A stretch of 24,951 nucleotides of DNA. Source: a virus. Of this stretch, positions 2,928-20,163 are shown piece after piece. The stretch's first letter is position 1, and every line of letters begins with the position of its first letter. The notes below the pieces were generated by a model. That model was not told where the DNA came from. It was given only the letters and a program-made list of their open reading frames with translations, and searched no databases. The DNA is taken from IMG/VR virus record IMGVR_UViG_3300045973_001026, positions 1-24,951 of that record. One strand, 5' to 3'. The translations under genes and the position numbers were made by a program.

Positions 2928-5207
2928 ATGTTTTACAGTTACGCTATCTGTTTGGGCGATACGCCCTACTACTACGGTTTTGGTTCTAGTGACTACGGAG
3001 ACGGTCGTGGTCGTATAGAACAACACCAGGTTAAATTGCGCATGGCTTCAAACGGAAGTTTTACGCATAGCCATCTTTATCACAGTCTTCAGACGCTGTC
3101 TGACCGTCTCAAATTGCCGATCACGTTTAGAAAATATTACGAAGGAGACTCAGAAATGGAGGCCCTCTCGTCTGAGTCAGACCTCATCGAAAATCATTCT
3201 AAGGCGTATGCTACACCTATTATAAACAGGAGAGTTGGCGGAAAAGTGGTCAGTGAGGACACCAGTCTCAAAGTTTTCAACATGACTGTTCCCGAGGATG
3301 GGTACGAGATGTGGAAGCACAAATGGAAATTAAAGCTCCATGAACGAAAGCTCAGGAAGCTACACCTGTTCGGCTTAGCAGATAAGTTCGCAGAAAAGTA
3401 CAAAGAGCTGAAAGTGCTGACCACTGGGAAAGTGAATGCCACTTTGGCGGTTCAGCGAGCAACTCGCCTTGCACTTAAAAGAGGATACACGGACATTGCA
3501 GACAGTCTCTCTATTTCCAGAGCGGCAAGCATGACGCTAGAAGAACACAGAGAGCACGCGACATTAGCTTTAGAAACTATCAGGATGAGAGAACTCGTAG
3601 CCCAACCGGTGCCAGAAGACCCTCGCGCTGTTCAGGACTACATGGAAAAGCTGAAATACAACGAGGACAGATACACCAATCTAGGAATGACCCCGCTGGC
3701 ACACGCGGTTTCAAAGCACCTCTTAGCTATCCGAAAGACGTGTCTCGTGAGAGGCGTCAAGTGCCTTAAAACCAACGCCAGCATTATCAGTGATCTCCAA
3801 ACTCAACCTGACCTAGCACTCCTCCCCTACGCGGAGCTGGCTAAGAAATTCGGCATTACGGTTGCAAACATGGTCCGGCTCGTGCGCCTTGCTGGAGTTG
3901 AAAAGCAGAATGCCAAGTCCATTGCGAAGGATAAGTCTAAGGCTGAGTTCATCGCGGATCCTCTCGTGGCCACCGACTGGGCAGCGGCAGGCGTAAAGCA
4001 CGGTCTCAGCCGGATGACGGCTTACCGTTATGCTAAGGAGTCTGATTTGATCACCGACCGAAGGAAGAAACCCGTCATACCCACCAAACAGGGGCCTGTG
4101 CAAGCCACCCCTATGCCGCCTGCTGCACCTTCCGTAGAGGCAGAGGTAGATTGCGACGGATTAGAGGACGAAGAATCAGAAAATGAGAAATTTGACCAGA
4201 TGCTTGAGGAGTGCCCCACCCTGAAGCAGTTTGAAGTTTACGACTTCGGCGGTGCAGCACCTGAAGAGCCAAGCCATGTGCCTAAACAGAGGCAGAAACT
4301 CGCGCCTCCTCCCAAGCCCGTCACTGTTCCCGGCAAGTGCCATCAGCGTGTGATTCGTGAGAACACCCGCGAGGAGGACATCGCCAAACTGACTCCAGTC
4401 CTCGGCGATCTCAGCGCTCTCAAGGCTTCCATGTTTGATCTGGCTTACGAGCGATACACCAAGGAGCATCGCGGATTTATTCGGCGTTACGAGTGGCTTG
4501 GCAACCCTGGCGTGAGCATCAAGTGGTGCTTCACTGCCCGGTACAAGGGCGAGTTAGGCGGAGTTGTGCTGCTGTCAGAACCTTATAACCCTTCAGCTAC
4601 GCAGGCACTGATTGCTCGTGGCGCGTGCGCCGGGTGGACTCCCAAGAACGTGGGATCCATGCTGGTGATGTTCGCCTGCCGACAGATGGCGGCCAACACT
4701 GTCAAGCGCAGTTTCGTGGCGTACGCTGACGAGGAAGCCAACGAGGTAGGCCAGATATATCAAGCGTGCAACTTCAAGTTCCTAGGTTGGAAGGAGGCTT
4801 CTTACCTTGAGAACGAGAATGGAGAGCGCAAATCGGCACAGACGTTCAAGCGCACTTCCAGGATGGTGCCTTGGCTCAAGAAGCAAGGAATAACACTGGC
4901 ACCTGAGTGCTTTACAGCGAAGGGCTACCTGCACTGGAGTGCTATTCCAGCGGACATAAAGGCTTCTATGCGTGCTCACATTGCCAGCGAGAAGGCCAAG
5001 TGCACAACCAAGACCCGGCCCAGGGGCAAGTACCTGCTGTTACTCGGGCCGAACAAGCAGATCACGAAGCAGATGAACGAGGCGTTTAAGGATGAAACCT
5101 TTCCATACCCTCGCAGAGTCGGCTATGAGGCCAAGGCCACCGGCAACGAGGTAGAGCTTGCCCGCCTATCCTCCGAGCGCACTGCACTGGACGCTGGAAC
5201 ACTGTAA
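2928..5207 (+). CDS. Multidomain GIY-YIG / helix-turn-helix / Mom-like protein
   Basis: A 759-residue protein with an unusual domain mix. Residues 1-100 look like a GIY-YIG domain: YSYAI, then YYYGFG in place of YVGKG, an R-x-x-QH helix, and ESDLIENH before IINRRVGG, where the E should be the metal ligand. Two helix-turn-helix-like segments lie near residues 300-325 (ELAKKFGITVANMVRLV) and 350-372 (GLSRMTAYRYAKES). An acidic, proline-rich linker follows at about 390-470. Residues about 500-615 resemble the GNAT-fold Mom family that modifies adenine in phage Mu: FIRRYEWLG, a GELGGVVLLSEPYNPSA strand, FVAYADEEANEVGQIYQACNF. The last 100 residues are unassigned. It starts 9 bp after the preceding gene, so the two are probably cotranscribed. 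The nuclease call is fairly firm, the Mom-like call moderate. Confidence 0.65.
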   Translation: MFYSYAICLGDTPYYYGFGSSDYGDGRGRIEQHQVKLRMASNGSFTHSHLYHSLQTLSDRLKLPITFRKYYEGDSEMEALSSESDLIENHSKAYATPIINRRVGGKVVSEDTSLKVFNMTVPEDGYEMWKHKWKLKLHERKLRKLHLFGLADKFAEKYKELKVLTTGKVNATLAVQRATRLALKRGYTDIADSLSISRAASMTLEEHREHATLALETIRMRELVAQPVPEDPRAVQDYMEKLKYNEDRYTNLGMTPLAHAVSKHLLAIRKTCLVRGVKCLKTNASIISDLQTQPDLALLPYAELAKKFGITVANMVRLVRLAGVEKQNAKSIAKDKSKAEFIADPLVATDWAAAGVKHGLSRMTAYRYAKESDLITDRRKKPVIPTKQGPVQATPMPPAAPSVEAEVDCDGLEDEESENEKFDQMLEECPTLKQFEVYDFGGAAPEEPSHVPKQRQKLAPPPKPVTVPGKCHQRVIRENTREEDIAKLTPVLGDLSALKASMFDLAYERYTKEHRGFIRRYEWLGNPGVSIKWCFTARYKGELGGVVLLSEPYNPSATQALIARGACAGWTPKNVGSMLVMFACRQMAANTVKRSFVAYADEEANEVGQIYQACNFKFLGWKEASYLENENGERKSAQTFKRTSRMVPWLKKQGITLAPECFTAKGYLHWSAIPADIKASMRAHIASEKAKCTTKTRPRGKYLLLLGPNKQITKQMNEAFKDETFPYPRRVGYEAKATGNEVELARLSSERTALDAGTL

Positions 5208-5214
5208 CTATAGT
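5187..5214 (+). repeat. 28-bp upstream box, copy 1
   Basis: This stretch immediately before the ATG at 5215 matches 6054-6081, before the ATG at 6082, at 23 of 28 positions without gaps (both begin CTGGACGC and contain ACACTGTAA). The similarity continues into both coding regions (ATGAC...GCACAACG). Copy 1 overlaps the last codons of the preceding gene. It may be a duplicated gene-start module or a regulatory site. TATAGT directly abuts the ATG, too close for a normal -10 box. Confidence 0.6.
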
Positions 5215-5502
5215 ATGACTGACGCACAACGCATCGTAAATCACCTGCTCGAAGCAGAGGGTGCCAATCCTAGCTTCAGGCGTGCATTCCGCCCGCAGGA
5301 CCACAGCTTGACGTACCCTAACAGCGACTATCTGCCATCATGCCCGAAGTGCCATAGCTTACGCGTGGATTTTCCGTCGCACCCGGACGACGCTTTCGAC
5401 TGCATGGACTGTGACCACTCTTGGATGCCGACTCCGAAGCAGGTTGCGAAGATGAAAGCTGGACGAAAAGTAGACCCTTTCTACGGAAGAATAAAGCAAT
5501 GA
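5215..5502 (+). CDS. Tagged zinc-ribbon protein, putative internal head protein
   Basis: A 95-residue protein. It begins MTDAQRIVNHLLEA, the amphipathic N-terminal peptide shared by four other proteins in this window. Residues about 43-72 hold two CxxC pairs (CPKC and CMDC, 22 residues apart), a zinc-ribbon arrangement. The start at 5215 was chosen because the conserved peptide begins there; an in-frame ATG at 5158 lies inside the previous gene. Its stop overlaps the next start as ATGA. The peptide resembles T4 capsid-targeting sequences with a following LLE-A cleavage-like site, so packaging into the head is inferred, not shown. The core function is unknown. Confidence 0.75.
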   Translation: MTDAQRIVNHLLEAEGANPSFRRAFRPQDHSLTYPNSDYLPSCPKCHSLRVDFPSHPDDAFDCMDCDHSWMPTPKQVAKMKAGRKVDPFYGRIKQ

Positions 5503-5822
5503 CCAACGCACAACGCATCGTAAACGCTCTCCTTGAGGCTGGAGCTGCTCGGAATCTAGCCGAGTATCGCTTGCGGCGTGGGCCTATTGAGTTTGTTGTC
5601 TGGAACCCAGATGGAGTGTGGAAAGGCGAGATCATGCGAGTAAGCATGCGCATTAAAGAGGGCGGGTGTGTAGTGTTCATCGGCGATCTTACTCAGAGGC
5701 TTTCAGCACCTCCTATCTTCGACGATCTGCTCCAGCAATCTAGAGTTCGCTACGAGAGCATTTGGATGCCAGATGCTGCTAGACAGGCGCTTTACGCTCA
5801 GAAGCTTCCTGACAACACGTGA
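5499..5822 (+). CDS. Tagged hypothetical protein, putative internal head protein
   Basis: A 107-residue protein starting MTNAQRIVNALLEAG, almost identical in DNA and protein to the start of its neighbour. The ATG overlaps the preceding stop (ATGA), and GGAAGA eleven bases upstream is one of the few Shine-Dalgarno-like sequences in the window. The core (about 20-95) is predicted beta-rich (FVVWNPDGVWKGEIMR, GGCVVFIGD) and unrecognised. The C terminus ALYAQKLPDNT is shared with the tagged metalloprotease-like protein ending YAYAQKLPG. A common head tag and a common tail around different cores suggest modular exchange. Confidence 0.72.
   Translation: MTNAQRIVNALLEAGAARNLAEYRLRRGPIEFVVWNPDGVWKGEIMRVSMRIKEGGCVVFIGDLTQRLSAPPIFDDLLQQSRVRYESIWMPDAARQALYAQKLPDNT
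5793..5816 (+). repeat. Repeat encoding the shared C terminus YAQKLP, copy 1
   Basis: TACGCTCAGAAGCTTCCTG followed by ACAAC here is nearly repeated at 6712-6739 (one substitution and a 4-base insertion). Both copies encode the last residues YAQKLP of otherwise different tagged proteins and straddle or approach the stop codon. This could be a recombination junction. Confidence 0.55.
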
Positions 5823-6028
5823 ATTTTATGCACAAGCAGCCAAGCGATACGAGCTACGGAGATCGGATTGATCGACACATCTACGGAATCAAAAACGGGG
5901 CAGATTGCCCGGCTGAGTGGTTTGATGTTGCGATGGCCGCATTCGACAAGTGCGGTATATCTGTGGAAGGCTTGGACAAGATTAAAGATTTAGCGAGCGA
6001 AATCGCGATTGAAGAAGGAATTGACTGA
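5819..6028 (+). CDS. Small acidic hypothetical protein
   Basis: Up to 69 residues. A GTG at 5819 overlaps the previous stop (GTGA); an in-frame ATG at 5828, in the AT-rich context usual for this window, would give 66 residues. The product is acidic with a helical C-terminal half (DKIKDLASEIAIEEGID) and no recognised domain. It lacks the N-terminal tag of the genes on either side. Translational coupling to the previous gene is likely. Confidence 0.6.
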   Translation: MNFMHKQPSDTSYGDRIDRHIYGIKNGADCPAEWFDVAMAAFDKCGISVEGLDKIKDLASEIAIEEGID

Positions 6029-6053
6029 GTCTTGCTTGCTGCACAGACGGCAT

Positions 6054-6081
6054 CTGGACGCCGGTACACTGTAAATAGATT
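6054..6081 (+). repeat. 28-bp upstream box, copy 2
   Basis: Second copy of the box described at 5187-5214. Here it lies in a 53-bp non-coding gap, so its conservation is not explained by coding of an upstream gene. Confidence 0.6.
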
Positions 6082-6735
6082 ATGACAGATGCACAACGTA
6101 TCATACGCGCTCTCCTTGAAGACGTGGTTGTTCCTGACGAGAATCTCGTTGAGGAATACACGGATGCTGTGCTGGAGCTTTTTCGTTGTGCAGCCGAACA
6201 TTATGGATGGGCAAGTGAAAATGGCCCGTACGCCTGGCAAGATAGCTGTGACTACGCAAATGCAAATGCGGACAGAAGTGTGCCAGCATTTATAGGCGAT
6301 ACAGATGCGCAAGGCGGATTCGGATACTATAATCCTAACGATAAAAGTGTAACGATTCAAGTAGCGTACACGGACAATCTTGCTCAGTTATGGGACACTG
6401 ACGAATTCCGAAGCCAGATAAAATCTTACGTTGGCCACGAGCTTATCCATGCGGGGCAGGATGATCATTCAAAAGGCAAGATGCGACAAGCCGATTTACC
6501 TTACGCTGAGAAGCCTTACGAGCTGATGGCTTTTGCAAAAGAGTTCATCGACCTTGTTAAGGCAGACGTGCTCAGCAGATCCTCGAAGACAGTGTCAAGA
6601 GGCAGCCTCAAGGCGAGCGTGATTAAAAAGCTGGCTTCCCTCACCGCGTCTGACCTGCATGCAACTATCCCGCCTAAAAGCCGAAAGCGATTTATTCGTT
6701 ACGCCTACGCTTACGCTCAAAAGCTTCCTGGCTGA
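6082..6735 (+). CDS. Tagged HExxH metalloprotease-like protein
   Basis: A 217-residue protein. Residues 1-13 are the shared tag MTDAQRIIRALLE. The central part carries H119-E-L-I-H123 within YVGHELIHAGQ, the zinc and catalytic motif of many metallopeptidases. Downstream, YAEKPYELMAFAKEF offers E143 or E147 as third zinc ligand, as in gluzincin-like peptidases where P-x-E-x-x-A follows the HExxH helix. The C-terminal region (about 165-217) is basic and ends YAYAQKLPG. Its 3' end overlaps the convergent capsid-fragment gene by 19 bp. If the tag directs packaging, this would be a protease delivered with the DNA or acting inside the head. The motif is clear; activity and packaging are inference. 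Confidence 0.72.
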   Translation: MTDAQRIIRALLEDVVVPDENLVEEYTDAVLELFRCAAEHYGWASENGPYAWQDSCDYANANADRSVPAFIGDTDAQGGFGYYNPNDKSVTIQVAYTDNLAQLWDTDEFRSQIKSYVGHELIHAGQDDHSKGKMRQADLPYAEKPYELMAFAKEFIDLVKADVLSRSSKTVSRGSLKASVIKKLASLTASDLHATIPPKSRKRFIRYAYAYAQKLPG

Positions 6736-6739
6736 CAAC
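6712..6739 (+). repeat. Repeat encoding the shared C terminus YAQKLP, copy 2
   Basis: Second copy of the element at 5793-5816, here lying across the overlapping ends of two convergent genes. Confidence 0.55.
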
Positions 6740-7223
6740 CCCGCGCTGCAAACCACCCCGCCATCTCTGCCTTGGCAATGATGATTACGGCAGTCCTGCC
6801 ACCTGAATTGCAGAGCTTGATCTCGTTCGCAGGCATGCTCGGGTCAAACAGGATCTTGCGGTTCGTCACTTTGCCCACAACCACCAGCCCCCGGTCAGTA
6901 GGCAGCAGGCCTTGTTCATTCGCTTCTTGCAGGACCGTGTGGGGCAGCGTCGTGAAAATAACCCTGCCTTCCCGCCCAGTAATGATTTCCTCACTCTCCT
7001 TGGCATAGTCGGTCTTGATCAGGTTGCTGGCCGTCTCAATGGCGTCAAGCAGCGAGAACTTGTGCGTTTGCCATCCGAGACCTTTAGGAGGCGTCGAGCA
7101 CCAAGCAACTCCAAGCGTCTCCTTTGAACCTGGATGTGAAACAGCATTTCCGTCGATTATTTCATTCATGCTGCCTAGAACTGCCTGCGCCTCACTACGC
7201 ATTCTTTCAGATTTCGTAAACAT
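6717..7223 (-). CDS. Stand-alone major-capsid-protein C-terminal homologue
   Basis: A 168-residue protein homologous to the C-terminal third of the capsid protein at 147-1604. GWQTHKFSLLDAIETASNLI aligns with NYQTHKFSIIDAFETASNFI (14 of 20 identical). NRKILFDPSMPANE aligns with NKKVFVDPHYPVNE, and VIFTTLPHTVLQEAN with VVATLPQFVAKNN. The N-terminal capsid domain is absent. The ATG at 7223 was chosen because earlier in-frame codons overlap the divergent gene and show no capsid similarity. The frame is intact and diverged, which argues for a maintained gene and not a fresh duplicate. It could be a minor head protein, an assembly regulator or a decoy of capsid assembly. It is convergent with the tagged protease gene and divergent from 7281. 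Confidence 0.8.
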   Translation of the reverse strand: MFTKSERMRSEAQAVLGSMNEIIDGNAVSHPGSKETLGVAWCSTPPKGLGWQTHKFSLLDAIETASNLIKTDYAKESEEIITGREGRVIFTTLPHTVLQEANEQGLLPTDRGLVVVGKVTNRKILFDPSMPANEIKLCNSGGRTAVIIIAKAEMAGWFAARGCQPGSF

Positions 7224-7227
7224 TCCA

Positions 7228-7256
7228 TTGACATTCTCACCGTAAAAGCGTAAACT
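7228..7256 (+). promoter_or_regulatory. Sigma-70-like promoter for the 7281 gene
   Basis: TTGACA (7228-7233), a 17-bp spacer and TAAACT (7251-7256) lie in the 57-bp gap between divergent genes. The inverted pair TAAAAG/CTTTTA (7242-7247 and 7254-7259) overlaps the -10 box and could be an operator. The leader to the ATG at 7281 would be about 18 nt. Confidence 0.7.
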
Positions 7257-7280
7257 TTTAACAGTTGAAACAATAACACT

Positions 7281-7604
7281 ATGAGTATCATGACTGTAGC
7301 ACACGCGACAACGGTTAAACCTAAACTTCCACCTAAAGCTGAATCTGAAAAGGCTATCAAGGCCTGGGCCGACAAGTTCGGCGATCAATACGGCGGCATG
7401 GGCAATGTGTCCGTGCGCCAGCTGTTGACCGGGCTTAACGAGGCTTTCCCGTTGGGACAGGCAGGCATGGGACCTGACTTCAAGGGTGCCCACAACATCA
7501 CGCTGGAAGTGGACAGCGCCATAAGGGTGAACATCTGGTGGGGCGGTCGTGCCTGGTACGCTGACTTCAAAGAGTGCCTATGCTCCTCCAACTCAAAGGT
7601 CTAG
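7281..7604 (+). CDS. Small phage protein with IWWGG motif, copy 1
   Basis: A 107-residue protein of unknown function. Its C-terminal half, PLGQAGMGPDFKGAHNITLE...VNIWWGGRAW, closely matches the protein at 11204-11518 (PLDQAGMGPDFKSTHSIT...AGIWWGGHVW), so the two are paralogues with different N-terminal parts. The N-terminal 35 residues are basic and alanine/lysine-rich. It is first in a long plus-strand run and has a good promoter. Its end overlaps the start of a 48-codon ORF. Confidence 0.8.
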   Translation: MSIMTVAHATTVKPKLPPKAESEKAIKAWADKFGDQYGGMGNVSVRQLLTGLNEAFPLGQAGMGPDFKGAHNITLEVDSAIRVNIWWGGRAWYADFKECLCSSNSKV

Positions 7605-7726
7605 TCAAAGCTCGCTACATCTCCTTCCTGGACAGCTTTGTCCGGGTGAACGGCGGGCGACAGCCACAGGCTAAGGATCGCCATGAAGCTTACGTGTGCG
7701 CGTGCGCAGGCACTAGCCATCCATGA
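7580..7726 (+). CDS. Small hypothetical protein (48 aa)
   Basis: ATG at 7580 to TGA at 7724-7726 gives 48 residues starting MLLQLKGLVKARYISF and ending with a Cys-containing tail (YVCACAGTSHP). It overlaps the end of the previous gene by 25 bp and otherwise fills the only gap before 7754. The product is basic and unrecognised. Support is only the open frame and its fit in the gap. Confidence 0.4.
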   Translation: MLLQLKGLVKARYISFLDSFVRVNGGRQPQAKDRHEAYVCACAGTSHP

Positions 7727-7753
7727 AGGTCTAGCTGGTAACACTTTACGATT

Positions 7754-8053
7754 ATGGAAAGGACAAAATTTACAGCCTGGATCACGTCTCACGCGCTTAC
7801 AACCGGCATCGTGAAGACGAAGGTGCTACCTGTATTCGACTGGAGCAAGGGAGCGGTTCAGCTTGTGCTGCCCAGATTTCCTCAGTTCGCACGCGGAGAA
7901 GGCAAGCAATGGCACCGCACAGAAGGAAGTGCTCTTTTGATGGCAGAGAAGATGCGGATGCGCGAGATAGCCCGCCTGAAGGCGCAGCTCCACCGGCTTG
8001 AAAACTACAAGGTTAAGGTAATAACTGACCGCGAGCTTTGGGCAGCACAATAA
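7754..8053 (+). CDS. Hypothetical protein, tandem paralogue 1
   Basis: A 99-residue protein starting MERTKFTAWITSHALTTG. It is a tandem paralogue of the next gene, which starts MEETTFTAWLTSRALTSG. Both share a central K-QWHRT / R-DWHRT block followed by an alanine-rich helix with regularly spaced basic residues (about 63-90, possible coiled coil). The start context ACGATTATG recurs before the next gene and before 22489. No Shine-Dalgarno. Function unknown. Confidence 0.78.
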   Translation: MERTKFTAWITSHALTTGIVKTKVLPVFDWSKGAVQLVLPRFPQFARGEGKQWHRTEGSALLMAEKMRMREIARLKAQLHRLENYKVKVITDRELWAAQ

Positions 8054-8059
8054 ACGATT

Positions 8060-8335
8060 ATGGAAGAAACAACATTTACAGCGTGGCTCACGTCAAGAGC
8101 CTTGACATCCGGCACCATAAAAGCAGAGGCCAGATTCTGGTCTAAATCCACGAGTAGCATGATTGTAGCTGATTCACCTGGGTACACTCACTACGCACAG
8201 AAAGAGGGCCGAGACTGGCACCGTACCCTTCCAGGTGCGCTCGCTAGAGCAGAGGTGATGCGGGCCGCCAAGATCAGGAGCCTTGAGAAGCAAGCCGCCA
8301 AGTTCAAGGCCCTCAAGATAAAGGTGTCGGAATAG
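8060..8335 (+). CDS. Hypothetical protein, tandem paralogue 2
   Basis: A 91-residue paralogue of the preceding gene, beginning 6 bp after its stop. Shared elements are the FTAW-TS-ALT-G start, the DWHRT block near residue 55 and a C-terminal charged helix (RAAKIRSLEKQAAKFKALK). The pair probably arose by tandem duplication and then diverged. Function unknown. Confidence 0.78.
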   Translation: MEETTFTAWLTSRALTSGTIKAEARFWSKSTSSMIVADSPGYTHYAQKEGRDWHRTLPGALARAEVMRAAKIRSLEKQAAKFKALKIKVSE

Positions 8336-8367
8336 CGTTCTAATTTACGGTCAACTTAGATAGCACA

Positions 8368-8622
8368 ATGACTTACCGCACTAAATTTTGGCTGGCTTAC
8401 ACAGTCACGGCAGTGATAGCACTTATCTGCTTCCTCGTGCTGGGATGGATCCTGATCAGTGACGCCAGCACTCTGTGCAAGGGAGCGGCTCTTGCGACCG
8501 GAGTGTATTGCTCAGCCATATTTTATATCCTGTTCACTACGGTGATACCGAGGGTAAAGCCTTGGGACTGGAACTGGTGGGAACCATTATTTTATCGTAA
8601 ACACAACAAAACAAAGAAGTAA
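8368..8622 (+). CDS. Small two-helix membrane protein
   Basis: An 84-residue protein with two hydrophobic stretches: about 8-30 (LAYTVTAVIALICFLVLGWI) and about 41-60 (AALATGVYCSAIFYILFTTV). A tryptophan-rich segment (WDWNWWEPLFY) and a basic tail KHNKTKK follow, consistent with an inner-membrane protein with a cytoplasmic C terminus. Its stop lies 1 bp before the next start. No family recognised. Confidence 0.75.
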   Translation: MTYRTKFWLAYTVTAVIALICFLVLGWILISDASTLCKGAALATGVYCSAIFYILFTTVIPRVKPWDWNWWEPLFYRKHNKTKK

Positions 8623-8623
8623 C

Positions 8624-9400
8624 ATGGAAAATCAAAAGTTAGCGAAAGATATCGAGCAAGCCATCAACCGGCATTCAGCCGAGAACGGCAGTGACACCCC
8701 GGACTTCATGCTGGCAGAATACCTGGTAGGCTGCCTGGAGGTGTTCAACAAAACCACCAGGTCCCGTGAGATTTGGTACGGGCGTGGCCGAAAAGCTGTG
8801 CACGGGCCAGTGCCTGCTACTCCCATGGATACTGGTTCACCGACTGTTGCCACCTTTCCTCCAGGGTTCACTGAGTTCAGAGGCCATCCCACGATGACCG
8901 GCACCTTGCCTGTGCACGGTCTATCTCTCATGGATATCGCCGGGGGTAATGCCTGCGTCGGGCCGGTGCCTGCTGCTCCGATGGATCCTGGTTCACTAAC
9001 AGGCGGAGGCACGTACCCTCCTGACGGCGTCGATACAGAAGATGACACTCCCGCTGTTAAACCGTTTTCGGCTGGCCCCAACGAGGTGAGCCAGCTTATT
9101 GACGGCCTGCACAGCCTACTGAAGAAGGTCTCACACGGTCCGTCTGGGTCTGGCGTACGCCCTAGCGTGACTCCTGTTCATTGCCAGGTGTTCGCCCGGT
9201 ATCATACCACAGGCGGTGTACTCTGTGATACCCCGCCTGTTATCGTTGCTGACCACAATGGCATTAAAAAAGCTGTATCCCGAGTGCACGCTGATATCGT
9301 CAACGGCATTACTAAACCCAGCTTTGAAAACGCCACCGATAACGACGATGTTGTCGGGTACTCCATCATCTTGCGAACCATCGCCGAAACGTCTGTGTAA
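8624..9400 (+). CDS. Phage protein with TPDFMLAEYL domain and linker repeats
   Basis: A 258-residue protein in three parts. Residues 1-52 (NRHSAENGSDTPDFMLAEYL...FNKTTRSREIWYGR) resemble a short domain common in phages, whose role I do not know. Residues about 58-150 form a low-complexity Pro/Gly/Thr linker with an imperfect repeat (GPVPATPMDTGSPT and GPVPAAPMDPGSLT). Residues about 175-258 (VHCQVFARYHTTGGVLCD...VVGYSIILRTIAE) match the C-terminal domain of the next gene. The short N-terminal domain occurs elsewhere as a stand-alone protein, so this looks like a fusion. Confidence 0.75.
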   Translation: MENQKLAKDIEQAINRHSAENGSDTPDFMLAEYLVGCLEVFNKTTRSREIWYGRGRKAVHGPVPATPMDTGSPTVATFPPGFTEFRGHPTMTGTLPVHGLSLMDIAGGNACVGPVPAAPMDPGSLTGGGTYPPDGVDTEDDTPAVKPFSAGPNEVSQLIDGLHSLLKKVSHGPSGSGVRPSVTPVHCQVFARYHTTGGVLCDTPPVIVADHNGIKKAVSRVHADIVNGITKPSFENATDNDDVVGYSIILRTIAETSV

Positions 9401-9415
9401 CCTGTTCTTAACCCT

Positions 9416-9904
9416 ATGCAAAACCTATCTGAACTTTCTGGAGAACCTACCGAGGGCGTACCTGCTGCAACGGCGCATGACGCACAAGAGGCGGAAGTCC
9501 CTGCTAACTCAATCGGCAGTTGGGCTGCTCGTATAGACCAGGCGCACGCCGCTGCAAAGGCCAAGGCGGAGAATGAAAAAGCCGTATTCGGAGAAGCCTT
9601 GGCTGCTCTCCTTAGAAGGGCCTCGTCTCCTTCCGGTGCTGGGATCAAGCCTGAAGTTGCACGCCCATGGTATAAGATTTACATCCGCTGGCACGCCGCA
9701 GACAACACCCTCCACGACAGCCACTGCTCAATCCTCACCGATTACGCTGAGATCGAGAATGCGCTCAGTGTCGCGCACTCTTCGGCTAGCTGCCAGTTCG
9801 GACAGGGTAAAACGGACACGTTTGGATTCTTCCATACCGACGATGTGCTTGCCGTGGATGGCTACGTTGTCATCCTCCAGACCATGACTGAAATGGCTTC
9901 TTAA
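9416..9904 (+). CDS. Hypothetical protein sharing a C-terminal domain with 8624
   Basis: A 162-residue protein. The last 80 residues (YKIYIRWHAADNTLHDSHCSIL...VDGYVVILQTMTEM) align with the end of the preceding protein. Its first residues MQNLSELSGEPTEGVP resemble MQNISEISVEPVKGTP at 10063, and the DNA before both ATGs is similar (TTC..CCTATGCAAAAC). The middle is an alanine/lysine-rich helix (about 42-66). Function unknown; a mosaic of segments shared with neighbours. Confidence 0.75.
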   Translation: MQNLSELSGEPTEGVPAATAHDAQEAEVPANSIGSWAARIDQAHAAAKAKAENEKAVFGEALAALLRRASSPSGAGIKPEVARPWYKIYIRWHAADNTLHDSHCSILTDYAEIENALSVAHSSASCQFGQGKTDTFGFFHTDDVLAVDGYVVILQTMTEMAS

Positions 9905-9916
9905 CTCTTGTGCCCT

Positions 9917-10051
9917 ATGCCTTTCCTTGCCGCAATCATCGCCGTAGTGGTGATCTATCAGTTCATTGCTTTCCTCGAAGCGCTCACGTTTTTCGGTGTT
10001 GCCGTGATCGCTTTGATCATTGGCCTAGTCTGCTACGTTCTATTTAGCTGA
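9917..10051 (+). CDS. Very small membrane protein (44 aa)
   Basis: ATG at 9917 to TGA at 10049-10051 encodes 44 residues, almost all hydrophobic: MPFLAAIIAVVVIYQFIAFL, a short EALTFF turn, then GVAVIALIIGLVCYVLF. This gives one or two membrane helices. It starts 12 bp after the previous gene and ends 11 bp before the next, which fits the packing of the region. Such tiny phage membrane proteins can be holin- or superinfection-related, but nothing here shows this. Confidence 0.65.
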   Translation: MPFLAAIIAVVVIYQFIAFLEALTFFGVAVIALIIGLVCYVLFS

Positions 10052-10062
10052 AATGTTCGCCT

Positions 10063-10437
10063 ATGCAAAACATATCTGAAATTTCTGTAGAACCTGTCAA
10101 GGGCACACCGGTGCGCCGATACTTCTTGGACAAGCGCGGCGTGCCTACTCAACGGATGGCTGGCACGTCTGGCAAGGGCCACTATGAGATTGCTCAAGCT
10201 GTTACGGGTGCAGATACCGGAGAACTTTACGGTCAGATGGCCCGGCTTGGATTCGCTCGTGTGCTGGAGACTACTGAGGAGATTCACGTGGAGTGCCGGA
10301 ACTTGACTCGTAAACAGAAGGATTACCTCTTGGTGCGATCCAGAGAAACTGGTCTACCAATCATCCACAACAGCCGTGCATTCGTTGAGAGCAAGGATGC
10401 TCGCGCTTCTGCGGTCGTATCTCACCTTTTACAGTAA
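10063..10437 (+). CDS. Hypothetical protein
   Basis: A 124-residue soluble protein. After a start like that of the 9416 gene, it is predicted mixed alpha/beta (GKGHYEIAQAVTGADTGELYGQMARLGFARVLET), with a basic segment NLTRKQKDYLLVRSRETG near residue 84. The pattern, including an ELYGQMARLGF helix, is seen in small phage proteins of unknown role. It ends 3 bp before the next gene. Confidence 0.75.
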   Translation: MQNISEISVEPVKGTPVRRYFLDKRGVPTQRMAGTSGKGHYEIAQAVTGADTGELYGQMARLGFARVLETTEEIHVECRNLTRKQKDYLLVRSRETGLPIIHNSRAFVESKDARASAVVSHLLQ

Positions 10438-10440
10438 AAT

Positions 10441-10716
10441 ATGAATGCCGAAGAAATTCAAGCCCTTAAAAACTACGCTACTGCGATTAGGGAATACGTA
10501 GATGTCCTGCAAGGGGCGTTGACGAACACTCAAGCCATCGTACACCTCCAGGGTGAACAGATTGACAGCCTTAACAGCCAGGTGAGCTTCCTGTTCTGCC
10601 TCGTTACCTTGCTGACCCTGCTCTATGCTGTGAACGCATATAAGACAACCGGGCGATTGCTCACGAGCAAGGAATGCTTGGATGAGCCTAAACAACACAA
10701 CGATAATACATTATGA
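10441..10716 (+). CDS. Small coiled-coil membrane-anchored protein
   Basis: A 91-residue protein with an N-terminal helix rich in E/A/Q (about 1-48, heptad-like hydrophobics in IVHLQGEQIDSLNSQV), one hydrophobic segment at about 49-68 (SFLFCLVTLLTLLYAV), and a short basic then polar tail. The stop overlaps the next start (ATGA at 10713-10716). This layout is also seen in lysis accessory proteins, but nothing here assigns it. Confidence 0.7.
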   Translation: MNAEEIQALKNYATAIREYVDVLQGALTNTQAIVHLQGEQIDSLNSQVSFLFCLVTLLTLLYAVNAYKTTGRLLTSKECLDEPKQHNDNTL

Positions 10717-10943
10717 TAACATTGGTCGATAAACTTAAAGAATCCGGCTTAAAGCTGAGGCCCGACTCTATTACTCGCGGAATGCCTTTTCCGAGCAAGA
10801 CGCTCCGTAAACGCCATAAGTTAGGAGCTTGCCTTTGCTGTGGAAAGAAGCCGTGCGTGTGCAACGCGTATCTGTACATGCTCTTAGAGCTGTCAGGAAG
10901 CGCGAGCTTAACGCCAGGTCAGCGACAGGTCAGCGACAGGTAG
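10713..10943 (+). CDS. Cys-cluster protein, 5' half of an apparently frameshifted gene
   Basis: A 76-residue ORF beginning at the ATGA overlap. Residues about 40-50 hold a dense cysteine cluster (CLCCGKKPCVC), probably metal-binding. The ORF ends soon after an 11-bp tandem duplication (10916-10937). Removing one repeat unit makes the frame run on through ARGGVIKEMYRV to the stop at 11198-11200, giving one protein of 158 residues. The short product is therefore probably the N-terminal half of a longer protein, truncated by the duplication, unless the duplication is an assembly artefact. Confidence 0.6.
   Translation: MITLVDKLKESGLKLRPDSITRGMPFPSKTLRKRHKLGACLCCGKKPCVCNAYLYMLLELSGSASLTPGQRQVSDR
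10916..10941 (+). repeat. 11-bp tandem duplication causing a frameshift
   Basis: AGGTCAGCGAC occurs at 10916-10926 and again at 10927-10937, followed by a partial AGGT. Eleven is not a multiple of three, and the duplication puts a TAG in frame at 10941-10943. Confidence 0.9.
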
Positions 10944-10966
10944 CCCGTGGCGGCGTGATCAAAGAG

Positions 10967-11200
10967 ATGTACAGAGTGAGATATCTCAAGCGCAGGATGG
11001 AATCCGCGTACGTCCACTTCGAGAGCCATTTGAAGCGGCACCTGCACGTAGGCCTGACCGTCGCTTGGAATCTGGCTGTGCTCAAGGCTGTGAACGAAGA
11101 ATCAAGTCGCCGCCGAGCAGAGGAAGATGACGCGTGCCTCCACTCGTTTCGAGAAGACACACAATCGCGCTGGGAGAGCAGGCGCTCAGGAAAGGTTTAA
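10967..11200 (+). CDS. Basic helical protein, 3' half of an apparently frameshifted gene
   Basis: A 77-residue ORF from ATG 10967 (GTG at 10955 is also possible). It is rich in Arg and His (YLKRRMESAYVHFESHLKRHLH) with a charged C-terminal helix. The frame extends upstream through the tandem duplication and, after removal of one 11-bp unit, fuses with the ORF at 10713. It may be the C-terminal half of that protein or be translated alone by internal initiation. No family recognised. Confidence 0.5.
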   Translation: MYRVRYLKRRMESAYVHFESHLKRHLHVGLTVAWNLAVLKAVNEESSRRRAEEDDACLHSFREDTQSRWESRRSGKV

Positions 11201-11203
11201 TTT

Positions 11204-11518
11204 ATGGGAGACTGGACTGACGAATTTAATGAGTTTGAGCTGAACACCACTCCTCCAGCGGTAGTACTCCAGCAGATGGCCGACATGGAGAAAGAGAAGG
11301 CGCATGTGCAGGCCGTGGCTGATGATCTGGACGACAGAGGCTTTGCAAAGATGACTGTTGCCGATGCCCTGGCCCGGATACATGCCGCGTGCCCGCTAGA
11401 CCAGGCTGGCATGGGTCCTGATTTCAAGAGCACTCACAGCATTACTATGGACAGCAACGGGAACGTGTGCGCTGGCATCTGGTGGGGCGGGCACGTGTGG
11501 CCGATCACCTTTACTTGA
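11204..11518 (+). CDS. Small phage protein with IWWGG motif, copy 2
   Basis: A 104-residue paralogue of the protein at 7281-7604, sharing PL-QAGMGPDFK--H-IT and IWWGG--W in the C-terminal half. The N-terminal half differs: acidic start (MGDWTDEFNEFEL) and a charged helix at about 22-45. It starts 3 bp after the preceding stop; GGAAAGG 10 bases upstream is one of the rare Shine-Dalgarno-like sequences here. Function unknown. Confidence 0.8.
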   Translation: MGDWTDEFNEFELNTTPPAVVLQQMADMEKEKAHVQAVADDLDDRGFAKMTVADALARIHAACPLDQAGMGPDFKSTHSITMDSNGNVCAGIWWGGHVWPITFT

Positions 11519-11524
11519 AAATGT

Positions 11525-12115
11525 ATGAACGACGCCAACTTAAACTTAGACTTGGTCCCGGACGATCTCGGGCCGCCTTACGAGAAGTGTGCTGACTGCG
11601 GCCAGACCTCAAAGACCTGGACGCCAGACGGTCAGATATGTATCTGCCCAGACTGTCACGATAAGAGATCCGCTGCTGATCTCAAGCGTCTACGTGAGCT
11701 TGCCAATGAGCCTGATGCGGCTGCACCCCTGGATAGGGTAGCTCCGCCTCCGTTCAGCCCAGGCGAGTCTCCTATCCGTACCGCTCCTCTGCCTGTTGAA
11801 CCGCCCGGTACTGAATTCGATGTGCGGGTGTATCACCAGGGCTGGCACGGGTCAGGGTGCTTTGCGGAGATGCTGCATGTGACCCCGGAGAATTACGTCA
11901 GGCACACCGATACCGTGATCACTGTGCGCGAGAGCTACCAGGACCAGGACGGCGGTGACCGTATGGGTGAGTCGGACTACTACACTGACCTCGACGCGTA
12001 CGCGGCCCACGAGAACAAATGGTTCAACGAGCACATGGCGGAGGTTACCGAGCGACACGTGCTCACGCGACTACAGATAGCAGAACTGAAGGCAAAATAT
12101 GGCACCAAAGCTTAA
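11525..12115 (+). CDS. Zinc-ribbon hypothetical protein
   Basis: A 196-residue protein. Residues about 22-44 carry CADC and CPDC pairs 16 residues apart, a zinc-ribbon-like knuckle. A proline-rich linker follows (about 65-95), then a domain with acidic loops (FDVRVYHQGWHGSGCFAEM, ESYQDQDGGDRMGESDYYTD) and a C-terminal helix (TRLQIAELKAKYG). Its last 17 bases overlap the next gene. No family recognised. Confidence 0.72.
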   Translation: MNDANLNLDLVPDDLGPPYEKCADCGQTSKTWTPDGQICICPDCHDKRSAADLKRLRELANEPDAAAPLDRVAPPPFSPGESPIRTAPLPVEPPGTEFDVRVYHQGWHGSGCFAEMLHVTPENYVRHTDTVITVRESYQDQDGGDRMGESDYYTDLDAYAAHENKWFNEHMAEVTERHVLTRLQIAELKAKYGTKA

Positions 12116-12374
12116 ACGCTACGACATGAAGAATATTCTGGCTGATCCCACCCAGCGCCGGGATATGATCGCCAGATCGACTCAGTTCGTAATGGCAATC
12201 GAAGGCCAGGACATCACTATGGAAGAGTCGTTGGCCAGCTATGATCGTGTGATGGAGGAGAAGCGCAAGAAAGAGGCTGAAGAAGCTGAAGCTAAGGAGA
12301 GGGCGCGACGGCTGAGACTGAGGACCAGGATCCGGCGGCCTTTCGGACCACTGAAAGCGTCGAAGCACAAATAA
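12099..12374 (+). CDS. Small conserved phage protein (RYDMKNILADPTQRRDMI type)
   Basis: A 91-residue basic protein. The N-terminal part (RYDMKNILADPTQRRDMI...AIEGQDITMEESLASYDRV) matches a short helical domain I associate with many phages, where a KxILADPxxRRxMM block is followed by an EGIxTTxEQAxxAYD block. Its role is unknown. The C-terminal 35 residues are extremely charged (KRKKEAEEAEAKERARRLRLRTRIRR), a likely coiled coil or nucleic-acid-binding tail. It overlaps the upstream gene by 17 bp. Confidence 0.75.
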   Translation: MAPKLKRYDMKNILADPTQRRDMIARSTQFVMAIEGQDITMEESLASYDRVMEEKRKKEAEEAEAKERARRLRLRTRIRRPFGPLKASKHK

Positions 12375-12389
12375 CAGGTTCTTACCTCT

Positions 12390-12866
12390 ATGGAACTAAA
12401 TAGCGTCCACGTAAGCAGCAAGTCCGATGAGTGGGAGACACCCAAGGATTTGTTTGCCAGATACGACACGGTCTATCATTTCAATCTTGACGCTGCGGCT
12501 ACGCGGGATAACGCGATGTGTCAGGCCTTCTTCACGAAAGAGGACGATGCTCTGACGATTGACTGGCATCGGCATGGCAAGAGCGTCTGGCTGAACCCTC
12601 CTTACGGACGCAGCATAGGGAAGTTCGTCAAGAAGGCGTACGAGGAGAGCTTGAAGGGCTGCGTGGTTGTGTGCCTGATCCCGGCCAGGACGGACACGGC
12701 GTATTTCCACAATTACTGCTTGAAGCATGGCCTGATCGAGTTCCTTCGTGGCAGGCTCAAGTTTGTAAACAGGACGTTCCCGAGCTGGCGTGCCGACGGG
12801 AATTTCAAGGTATCGCCAGCACCGTTCCCGTCGTGCATCGTGATATTCGGATCCAAAAGCGAATGA
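12390..12866 (+). CDS. dam: Phage-type DNA N6-adenine methyltransferase
   Basis: A 158-residue protein of the short phage Dam-type family. It has EWETP at 14-18 (the EWxTP motif typical of these enzymes), FNLDAAAT at 31-38 (cofactor region), the catalytic NPPY at 69-72 followed by GR, and the VVVCLIPARTDTAYFH strand and helix. It transfers methyl from S-adenosylmethionine to N6 of adenine, usually in GATC or similar sites, and may protect phage DNA from host nucleases. Length fits the family. A near-perfect palindrome with central GATC overlaps its stop codon. The specificity is not shown by sequence. Confidence 0.88.
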   Translation: MELNSVHVSSKSDEWETPKDLFARYDTVYHFNLDAAATRDNAMCQAFFTKEDDALTIDWHRHGKSVWLNPPYGRSIGKFVKKAYEESLKGCVVVCLIPARTDTAYFHNYCLKHGLIEFLRGRLKFVNRTFPSWRADGNFKVSPAPFPSCIVIFGSKSE

Positions 12867-12880
12867 TCGTTCGCTTTTGG
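12853..12880. promoter_or_regulatory. 28-bp near-perfect palindrome centred on GATC
   Basis: CCAAAAGCGAA (12853-12863) and TTCGCTTTTGG (12870-12880) are exact inverted repeats around TGATCG, so 26 of 28 positions are symmetrical and the centre is GATC (12865-12868). The dam stop codon (12864-12866) lies in the loop. There is no T-run after the stem, so it is a poor intrinsic terminator; it could be a terminator variant, RNA-processing hairpin or methylation-sensitive operator. Confidence 0.7.
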
Positions 12881-12919
12881 AAACTCAGCAGTAAACCTTG
12901 CGTGGTCCGTAATTAGGGT

Positions 12920-13474
12920 ATGCTGCCAGTGCAACGAATACTATCACGCCTGCTTGAAGATGATGACGACGACATCATTGGCGCTGAAGGACTGCTCCCT
13001 GATCCTCAGTCAGATGCGCTTGAATCTTTTTTATCGGGAGCCAAAATTGATCCTGTAACTGCTGATTACCTGAGACGTGTTCTTCGTGTTGCAATCACTG
13101 AGATAAGCTCTAAGTTTTCAGAGGCCTCACCGTTAGGAAACTGGTTCAATTACCACCCTAAATCCAGGGATGACGGCCATGCCAGTGTCGAATTCTACTG
13201 GGATACTCCTGGGTTTAATCCTGACATTGCGTGGGCTGCATCATACGGGGCAGCCTATCGAGACGACGTCAGCCGGTTGAAGCGCACCGGTGATGATCAG
13301 GTCAAGCTCGTCAAGGAGATTAACAAGGTTTTGTCGGAGATCCCAAAACCAAGTATGTGCATTAGGTGTATGGCTGGAAGTGGAAACGATAGTGAACTCC
13401 TGGTTAAGGTGTGGTTTAGGGATAATATTTTTGATGATGTCTGGGAAGAAGGGTCAGCCGGGTACAAGGATTAG
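12920..13474 (+). CDS. Tagged hypothetical protein, putative internal head protein
   Basis: A 184-residue protein beginning MLPVQRILSRLLEDDDDD, a variant of the shared tag (x-QRI-x-x-LLE) followed by an acidic run. The rest has helices (about 45-75) and a mixed region with WFNYHPKSRDDGHASVEFYWD and two nearby cysteines (CIRC). It is not recognised. It follows the dam gene by 53 bp and ends 1 bp before the next tagged gene. Packaging in the head is inferred from the tag only. Confidence 0.72.
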   Translation: MLPVQRILSRLLEDDDDDIIGAEGLLPDPQSDALESFLSGAKIDPVTADYLRRVLRVAITEISSKFSEASPLGNWFNYHPKSRDDGHASVEFYWDTPGFNPDIAWAASYGAAYRDDVSRLKRTGDDQVKLVKEINKVLSEIPKPSMCIRCMAGSGNDSELLVKVWFRDNIFDDVWEEGSAGYKD

Positions 13475-13475
13475 C

Positions 13476-14021
13476 ATGACGCCCATCACGTTCCAAATCA
13501 TATCCCACCTGCTCGAATCTGATACTATTCAGTTCAGGTCTGAGTGCACCGGTGCCCATCACGAGCAGGAGGATATGGCTCTATTTGCTGAAGTGGCCGG
13601 AAAGCCTGCCGGTGAGCTTCGTTACTGCATCTACAACGACGAGATCACAGTCCAGTGGATTCACGTCGATAATAAGTTCCGCAGGCAAGGCATAGCGCGG
13701 GCCATGGCCCAGCATCTTCAGTCTGAGTACCCTGACCAGAGCATCGAGTGGAGCAACACCACGGACGACGGCACTGCCTTCCTGGACAAGCTCGACCGGG
13801 TGTTCGATCCGAATGCGAACTACGCCACCAGGGTGAAGGCTCGCGACGAAGCGAAATTAGAGTTGGACAGGCTCCAGGCGGAGATGGACGCGTCTGATAC
13901 TCCGCTGTCCCGAGAGAAGATGGATCGCTACGGCGACCTGGACAGGTTCGTCTGGAGCATGGATGACGAACTCAGGAGCATGAAGCCGGGCCGATGGAAG
14001 ATTCCTCCTGCCAGCATGTAA
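13476..14021 (+). CDS. Tagged GNAT-type N-acetyltransferase
   Basis: A 181-residue protein. Residues 1-14 (MTPITFQIISHLLE) are the most divergent version of the shared tag. Residues about 33-110 form a GNAT fold: ALFAEVAGKPAGELRY, then TVQWIHVDNKFRRQGIARAM, in which R69-R-Q-G-I-A74 is the acetyl-CoA pyrophosphate loop (Q/R-x-x-G-x-G/A), then SIEWSNTTDDGTAFLDKLD. The C-terminal 60 residues are a charged helix. A longer in-frame ORF begins at 13290 inside the previous gene; 13476 was chosen because the tag starts there and the genes then abut. Packaging is inferred. A tagged acetyltransferase could modify host proteins early in infection. Confidence 0.72.
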   Translation: MTPITFQIISHLLESDTIQFRSECTGAHHEQEDMALFAEVAGKPAGELRYCIYNDEITVQWIHVDNKFRRQGIARAMAQHLQSEYPDQSIEWSNTTDDGTAFLDKLDRVFDPNANYATRVKARDEAKLELDRLQAEMDASDTPLSREKMDRYGDLDRFVWSMDDELRSMKPGRWKIPPASM

Positions 14022-14142: not shown

Positions 14143-14167
14143 CCCCATTATCCCTCGTATTTAAGCC

Positions 14168-14660: not shown

Positions 14661-15203
14661 ATGCCTCCGAAACGCGCCATCAAAGACACCTACGCTAGCA
14701 TCACTGCCAAGGCCGTTGCTGAGTGGGGCCTGACCGACAACCCTCGCACAGCAGGGTACATCCTCTTGGACGGAACCCTGCTTGACCTTGCAGAGGGCCA
14801 GGGGTACCGCGTTCACGACCATCGGGAGATTGCACAGTTTTTCGACGAGGCTTTCGATTACTCGAAGATAGATCGCGGCGACGTCATGCACAAGTATATG
14901 GACTTAGGGGCTATTCGATGGATGCCTGAAGGTCCCGGCATTTACGTGCGAGCGGTGCCCACTCAGGCTCAGCGCCGGGCCATTGACCGGCTATTGGAGC
15001 CGATGGCAGACGAAGAGGAAGTTCACGTGGACGTGACCAGTTCAAAGTACGGCGAAAAGCACCACGACTTTTCCAGGCTGGACGGTGTGTATGTGTCGGA
15101 AGCTATCGCTGAATTTTATGCGTCAGGCAACCTGGGCTATAACCAAGAATTCGAGATAGAGGAGAGCCTGATTAAGCGGATACTGGAGCATCTGCTAAGC
15201 TGA
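14661..15203 (+). CDS. Conserved phage protein (GYILLDGTLLDL type)
   Basis: A 180-residue protein starting 1 bp after the previous stop. The segment GYILLDGTLLDLAEGQGYRVHDHREIAQFF (residues 31-60) resembles a domain found in other phages and mobile elements, often annotated as hypothetical. The middle has IRWMPEGPGIYVRAVP and a helix, then beta strands around VHVDVTSSKYG. It ends with ESLIKRILEHLLS, which resembles the QRI-x-x-LLE tag but sits at the C terminus. Its end overlaps the convergent gene by 9 bp. Function unknown. Confidence 0.75.
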   Translation: MPPKRAIKDTYASITAKAVAEWGLTDNPRTAGYILLDGTLLDLAEGQGYRVHDHREIAQFFDEAFDYSKIDRGDVMHKYMDLGAIRWMPEGPGIYVRAVPTQAQRRAIDRLLEPMADEEEVHVDVTSSKYGEKHHDFSRLDGVYVSEAIAEFYASGNLGYNQEFEIEESLIKRILEHLLS

Positions 15204-20110: not shown

Positions 20111-20163
20111 ATTAAATCTTAGCGGACAGCCTGCCTTTAGAGTCTCGCCGCGATAGTTAAGGC

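Follow-up and report, generated by a model that had tools for sequence, protein, structure and literature searches.

The window analysed here, the entire 24,951-base IMG/VR record IMGVR_UViG_3300045973_001026, comes from a virus with no close cultured relative (a megablast search of cultured phages with the whole window gave no match) and encodes five proteins with unrelated cores that all begin with a similar helix of 13-14 residues ending in LLE. We think it likely that this helix is a capsid-entry tag acting like the capsid-targeting sequence (CTS) of phage T4, and that the prohead protease removes the tag and also splits polyproteins. A sequence-only reading of the window had taken the five proteins for head-packaged effectors that would be injected into the host, an interpretation supported by the sequence comparisons described below. 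It identified the five proteins correctly but was too narrow, because the tag can also be internal or C-terminal and its form varies from phage to phage. What can be read from the genes themselves are the tags, their phage-specific forms (dialects), their modularity, the protease gene, a late-type box and a junction motif; docking, cleavage, packaging and injection are what we infer from them.

All five open reading frames (ORFs) are present at the starts claimed in that reading, and they open, in order, with MTDAQRIVNHLLEA, MTNAQRIVNALLEA, MTDAQRIIRALLED, MLPVQRILSRLLED and MTPITFQIISHLLES. The tags, all on the plus strand, are MTDAQRIVNHLLE (5215..5253) on a 95-residue zinc-ribbon-like protein (gene 5215-5502), MTNAQRIVNALLE (5499..5537) on a 107-residue protein whose start overlaps the stop of the preceding gene (gene 5499-5822), MTDAQRIIRALLE (6082..6120) on a 217-residue HExxH protein (gene 6082-6735), MLPVQRILSRLLE (12920..12958) on a 184-residue protein (gene 12920-13474) and MTPITFQIISHLLE (13476..13517) on a 181-residue GNAT protein (gene 13476-14021). 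Family scans agree with the claim that the cores are unrelated, giving a weak zinc ribbon in the 5215 protein (E 0.005), an HELIH sequence in the 6082 protein, a GNAT domain in the 13476 protein (Pfam E 3e-6) and no convincing match for the 5499 and 12920 proteins. In a structure model of the 6082 protein, built on a six-sequence alignment (predicted local distance difference test score, pLDDT, 73), the tag is predicted to form a separate helix (residues 3-13) which ends at LLE; a fold search with this HExxH model gave no significant match, and no cultured homologue came up in searches with the HExxH protein or with two conserved tagged proteins. A pattern derived from the window matches 5 of its 571 candidate starts, compared with 9 of 26,941 start codons deep within ORFs across all contigs (P ~2e-6), a post hoc comparison in which part of the nine deep matches are possibly genuine internal tags.

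The tags of the clustered genes at 5215, 5499 and 6082 have 10-11 of 13 residues in common in each pairing, with synonymous to amino-acid changes over the first 13 codons of 5:2, 5:3 and 3:3. One alternative explanation is that the peptide has no tag function and came about as segments with promoter, leader and start were copied by gene duplication and recombination. In keeping with that idea, the genes at 5215 and 6082 share leader and start over 77 nucleotides (73%), including a leader of about 28 nucleotides (CTGGACGC.GG.ACACTGTAA.TA) at 5187..5214, directly 5' of the tagged start, and at 6054..6081 (both plus strand), and the C-terminal codons for YAQKLP are common to 5499 and 6082. Part of the tag likeness in this cluster is therefore attributable to cassette duplication. 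The genes at 5499, 12920 and 13476, however, do not have the leader of 5215 and 6082, and the relatives of this phage provide further arguments that are taken up below.

A search with the window capsid protein returned 37 loci, and the relatives compared here are 16 contigs (G001-G016, 23-238 kilobases), most of them read whole and two (G011 and G012) in part. The sequence-only reading predicted that the tag would find further cargo genes, and many more tagged genes were indeed found in these relatives. A position-specific score was built from 24 tags, and these seeds are included among the matches. At a score of at least 14 it identifies 77 tagged ORFs (24 in G010, 15 in G016 and 11 in G008); at 18 or above it matches 64 of 64,210 starts versus 6 of 34,599 interior positions, with 24 of the matches being training seeds, and the permuted-column control at score 14 gave 2 matches versus 95. 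A pattern fixed from the window alone is matched in the relatives at 19 of 14,477 near-start codons versus 7 of 17,720 deep ones, with a single match in the reversed-peptide control. It could be argued, from weak low-score matches and from those seven deep starts, that LLE-ending amphipathic helices are simply common where proteins begin; given the counts, the column-permutation and reversed-peptide controls and the near-private dialects, such a coincidence is hardly credible, and chance was rejected. The exact DNA patterns of the window tag had no match in the relatives or in IMG/VR, as would be expected if dialects differ. One tagged family, with an FG.G.P-like stretch near the N terminus, occurs in at least five genomes (G007 12737, G016 143887, G006 109680, G008 104816 and G010 6955); a PDZ domain was found in some of its members, and a search for cultured homologues with the PDZ protein matched a DegQ-like PDZ region only.

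The tag takes different forms in different contigs, among them AKQLV..LLE, SRARAILEAETP, [KN]AR.LID and E/S.EDDF..KDL (here and below, a slash marks a known or predicted cut), and contigs that are poor in the LLE form carry a form of their own instead. The G005 dialect (MSRARAILEAETP) has 11 pattern matches and occurs at 1 of 1,629 deep starts, and the G013 dialect (M[KN]AR.LID) has 14 and occurs at none of 1,266. Seven copies of a TPR motif are found in G005 and none in the other contigs, while the acidic EDDF..KDL element is present in 18 copies in G003 and absent from 16 other contigs, a KEV variant of it being found in G002. Other IMG/VR contigs matched the EDDF..KDL pattern only singly; a scan of these contigs for the S77 family of prohead proteases found no match, but the scan was signal-less everywhere, so that absence does not follow. 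Which dialect a core bears depends on the genome that it is in, even among homologues: MTRARAILEVETTR plus core in G005 and MNAQNVVKQMLES plus core in G016 are 48% identical, and the core of G005 137712 bears the G005 tag despite 48-56% identity to its counterparts in G015, G016 and G008. Similarly, a family that is LLE-tagged in four genomes (G010 103930, G008 22438, G006 14079 and G016 75515) has a G003 homologue (ORF 152880) in which the core is preceded by LVE/SLDDDDESIKDIL. A HAD-phosphatase core is tagged in G010 (MRAKQLVDILLED/KKVIAVDLDGT) and untagged in G016 (MDKRWIGVDLDGT) and G008, where the protein starts directly with the core. The tag is thus a separable module, and its differences between phages suggest co-evolution with each phage's own core or protease.

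In G003 (ORFs of 1,146, 1,192 and 1,545 residues), G002 (792 and 864) and G005 (415, 750 and 756), copies of the dialect motif are repeated within ORFs. Where domains are recognisable the internal copies fall between them, and the same domains are separate genes elsewhere; they include NUDIX (E 1e-17), 2H phosphoesterase (E 2e-10) and HExxH. Polypeptides that combine several unrelated conflict-type domains were seen in these three genomes only, and none in the window. The edges of the tags match [LIV]xE/[SAGD], and 23 of 31 acidic-K[DE][LIVF] anchors have [LIV]xE[SAGDT] just before them, versus 11% in shuffles (P 4e-16, an indicative value because motif copies within one protein are not independent). 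At an orthologous junction the site is constant and its surroundings have changed (G003 EFPEQNREQLGE/SEDEDV, G002 EFPETDREQIDE/AVEDSD). The HExxH family, whose invariant residues in window numbering are H119, E120, H123, Q126, P145, E147, M149, A150 and A152, is encoded in the window by a single gene with the tag at the N terminus and in G010 by a gene with the tag at the C terminus (..FATE/SRAQRIVTNLLES at the end of the protein), and in G003 it is an internal domain, which ends YAYQYAQQLPE/SVEDDFETKDL where the window protein terminates with YAYAYAQKLPG. Such polyproteins might instead be polyvalent proteins of the ordinary kind, in which their zincin domains do the processing and the acidic motif is a linker: several do contain HExxH domains, and zincin autoprocessing has been proposed for polyvalent proteins (PMC5512222). 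We regard this as improbable, because many tagged proteins and some polyproteins have no detected zincin domain, and because single-domain genes also have the motif at their N terminus and its dialect goes with the genome. The 2H phosphoesterase domains are found in polyproteins at L041 and L044 (G003) and L073 (G002), the last with a weak match to anti-CBASS Acb1 (E 0.017), and a YHGTS...EGL segment at G003 115829 looks ADP-ribosyltransferase-like by eye but has no Pfam match. ORFs of 1502 and 1715 residues on other viral contigs (L139 and L140) contain an HELVH domain after repeated FLNE stretches (VTNTWDGVSDSTQ.FLNE) and possibly represent another polyprotein family with Glu-ending repeats.

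The tag also has C-terminal copies. In the window, the protein encoded at 10063-10437 ends in a tag-like helix (...AFVE/SKDARASAVVSHLLQ; 10390..10434, plus strand), and a similar protein in G016 ends FVE/ARDTRATQVVKQLLG; the protein encoded at 14661-15203 ends in a probable further example (...FEIEE/SLIKRILEHLLS; 15165..15200, plus strand), recognised by eye and outside the list obtained with the position-specific score. In both window proteins E/S immediately precedes the helix. At a score of at least 12, 16 ORF ends carry a C-terminal helix, versus 6.7 expected from interior segments and 1 in reversed tails. For 12 of 16 C-terminal tags (fifteen scored ones, after a duplicate was dropped, and the 14661 protein added by eye) E[SA] lies within 12 residues before the helix, against a background of 8%, and the predicted cut therefore tends toward the cargo side of the tag. 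The cut position predicted after LLE in the sequence-only reading thereby gains independent support from polyprotein junctions and C-terminal tags. Taken as a whole, these patterns also bear on the cassette explanation raised above. Duplication of DNA accounts for the spread of tags, but not for tags which are alike in protein and not in DNA, which stand at N-terminal, internal and C-terminal positions, and which change by genome while the cores stay homologous; we therefore reject pure cassette duplication and consider a peptide with no tag function very unlikely. The protein at 10063 is also the second of a pair with another common N terminus, MQN[LI]SE[LI]S.EP..G.P (window 9416-9460 and 10063-10107, 84% over 50 nucleotides), and is the member of that pair with the C-terminal tag-like helix.

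As the sequence-only reading had stated, a gp23-like major capsid protein is encoded in the window (147..1604, plus strand; Pfam Gp23 E 3e-28). The prohead protease on which that reading also depended was found in the relatives, 16 of 16 of which have an S77 gene (PF03420, T4 gp21-type; 37.8-74.8 bits, cut-off 27), placed directly upstream of the capsid gene wherever the head module was mapped; the window itself begins 146 nucleotides before the capsid gene and so ends short of the expected place. At 540-630 residues versus 212 for T4 gp21, the protease ORF is a possible scaffold fusion. Protease N termini end in tag-like sites (RQYLVE/G, QQLLE/G and KILLE/D), and in 8 of 9 genomes the product of a gene neighbouring the protease, probably a core protein, opens with a helix that closes with LGE/[ASD] at residues 11-13. 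In G007, G008, G009 and G016 the protease is separated from the probable core genes by a tagged gene. A separate ORF on the minus strand of the window (6717-7493) is similar to the C-terminal half of the capsid protein, with an inverted repeat between 1152-1205 and 7017-7070 (76%), and may be a truncated capsid paralogue or relic.

A TA[GAT]TTA box, found at 0.3% of all ATG/GTG codons, lies 4-6 nucleotides before the start of 30 of 74 tagged genes versus 122 of 1,341 untagged genes (odds ratio 6.8, P 5e-12), and is also present at gp13-like, baseplate-like, sheath (G011) and probable core genes. In the window, TAATTA occurs at 12910..12915 (plus strand), 4 nucleotides before the 12920 start, and boxes of the TAATTA class precede gene 14168 (14158-14163) and the 771-residue protein at 20164 (20154-20159). 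We take this box for a putative late promoter close to the start, so near that a leaderless mRNA is possible. The capsid genes of the window and of G001-G016 have A/C-rich leaders with no obvious Shine-Dalgarno sequence, and leader features may hint at the host group. The late-type boxes are relevant to another alternative, namely that the peptide is a trans-acting sorting or docking tag for some other destination (a chaperone, the host membrane, the tail or a replication compartment) or a degradation signal. The dialects, which suggest a phage-encoded partner reading the tag, would suit that explanation; it is nevertheless unlikely in view of the boxes, of the S77-type Glu-ending sites at the cargo-facing edge of the tag, and of the head module, with its tagged gene and its similar core and protease N termini.

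Several observations weigh against a capsid-entry tag that is cut by the prohead protease. No homology in sequence was found between the tag and MKTYQEFIAEA, the T4 CTS, and by eye only a Q..[IF]..[LI]xE/A layout is common to both. Conservation extends beyond LLE in several dialects (in G010, LLE.GPDEV.P.DYL), so that what is cleaved off may be only a portion of the tag, or the cut may fall at another site, and the G005 dialect (LEAE/TP) fits [LIV]xE less well. The density of [LIV]xE in core proteins is only modestly raised (34 versus 21.5 +/- 4.7 in shuffles), and a general excess there was rejected for this reason; the capsid gene, moreover, has no box. The phages are known from metagenomic contigs alone. 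Finally, the sequence-only reading counted on the tag being uncommon in clearly non-virion proteins such as replication enzymes. None of the replication and tail orthologues found by phmmer (of T4 gp41, gp47, gp42, gp18, gp13 and gp5) is tagged, but G010 has a tagged NUDIX-thymidylate kinase that could be an ordinary nucleotide enzyme. Since there is a published argument that other phages package NUDIX enzymes in their heads (PMC9503650), this protein is no refutation, yet it weakens the argument from function. NUDIX domains also occur within tagged polyproteins of G003 and G005.

In the model that we favour, a capsid-entry tag processed in the prohead, many unrelated proteins would be made late in infection, each bearing a short amphipathic helix that closes with [LIV]xE; most often this helix would be N-terminal, and sometimes C-terminal or repeated between polyprotein domains. 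The helix would dock the protein in the prohead core; the activated S77 (gp21-type) protease would cut after Glu, removing the tag and releasing polyprotein domains; and the free effectors would stay in the head and enter the next cell with the DNA. Late synthesis and cleavage have support in the sequences, whereas docking, retention and delivery we infer from T4 (PMC3012670, PMC9391042) and P1 (PMC9024508). A broader proposition, to which we lean only slightly, is that this is a phage-private head import code used throughout a clade of large phages, in which the tag coevolves with core or protease and would be read N-terminally, internally or C-terminally, and effector polyproteins would be cut by the prohead protease into separate injected proteins.

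In T4, gp21 strips nine N-terminal residues from itself and trims IPI-III and Alt of short N-terminal peptides (PMC9958956), and the T4 N termini are comparable in layout (IPII/IPIII MKTYQEFIAE/A, gp22 MLKEQLIAE/A, gp21 MNEPQLLIE/T, gp24 MAKINELLRE/S). As with the T4 CTS of IPI, IPII, IPIII and Alt, a short N-terminal peptide on unrelated proteins has hydrophobic-x-Glu some 10-14 residues in, alongside a gp21-type protease, a gp23-type capsid and highly variable cargo (PMC3012670, PMC9958956). Unlike T4, with its handful of tagged genes, the phages described here have up to 24 strongly tagged genes per contig, near-private dialects and internal and C-terminal copies, and their packaging is proposed from genes alone. 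About 30 N-terminal residues of P1 DarB are enough to direct a foreign protein to the capsid, but no common consensus was found among the Dar proteins (PMC9024508), whereas the present tag is widespread within a genome. In phiKZ and SPN3US the prohead protease (SPN3US gp245) likewise cuts head propeptides after Glu in a short motif, and SPN3US gp53 and gp54 have an identical N terminus and are otherwise diverged (PMC5694885); in contrast, most of those propeptides exceed 100 residues, the substrates are few and the motif is AxE or SxE. Polyvalent proteins (Iyer et al. 2017) are multidomain, have zincin, GNAT and other conflict domains and are proposed to be injected (PMC5512222), as are head-packaged NAD-ADPr enzymes, with virion-packaged NUDIX and 2H domains (PMC9503650). 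Unlike in polyvalent proteins, a genome-specific repeated tag with predicted prohead-protease sites parts the domains here, and the same domains are also found as tagged genes on their own. Precedents exist for capsid-targeting peptides, for prohead-protease propeptides and for polyvalent proteins, but in the open-licence papers searched (preprints excluded) we found no account of near-private dialects, of such C-terminal and internal tags, or of prohead-protease sites between polyprotein domains.

Injected phage proteins have mostly been found singly, and a readable tag turns their discovery into a sequence search. The tag nominates dozens of candidate injected effectors in uncultured phages, including the HExxH protein, GNAT, NUDIX-thymidylate kinase, HAD, 2H phosphoesterase and PDZ proteins and many unknown folds. 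The near-private dialects suggest that a tag can be matched to its reader, which may make the docking partner of a CTS in the prohead core approachable by covariation. Cutting of polyprotein cargo inside the head, if true, would put the prohead protease to a new use and be a bacteriophage counterpart, inside the capsid, of polyprotein processing in eukaryotic viruses.

Other genes of the window include one for a 759-residue protein (2928-5204) with a C-terminal match to Mom-like DNA modification proteins (PHROG E 2e-16) and one for a Dam-type methylase (12390-12866). The genes at 7754-8053 and 8060-8335 form a tandem pair of paralogues whose products both open with ME.T.FTAW[IL]TS.ALT.G, and they resemble each other just 5' of their start codons too.

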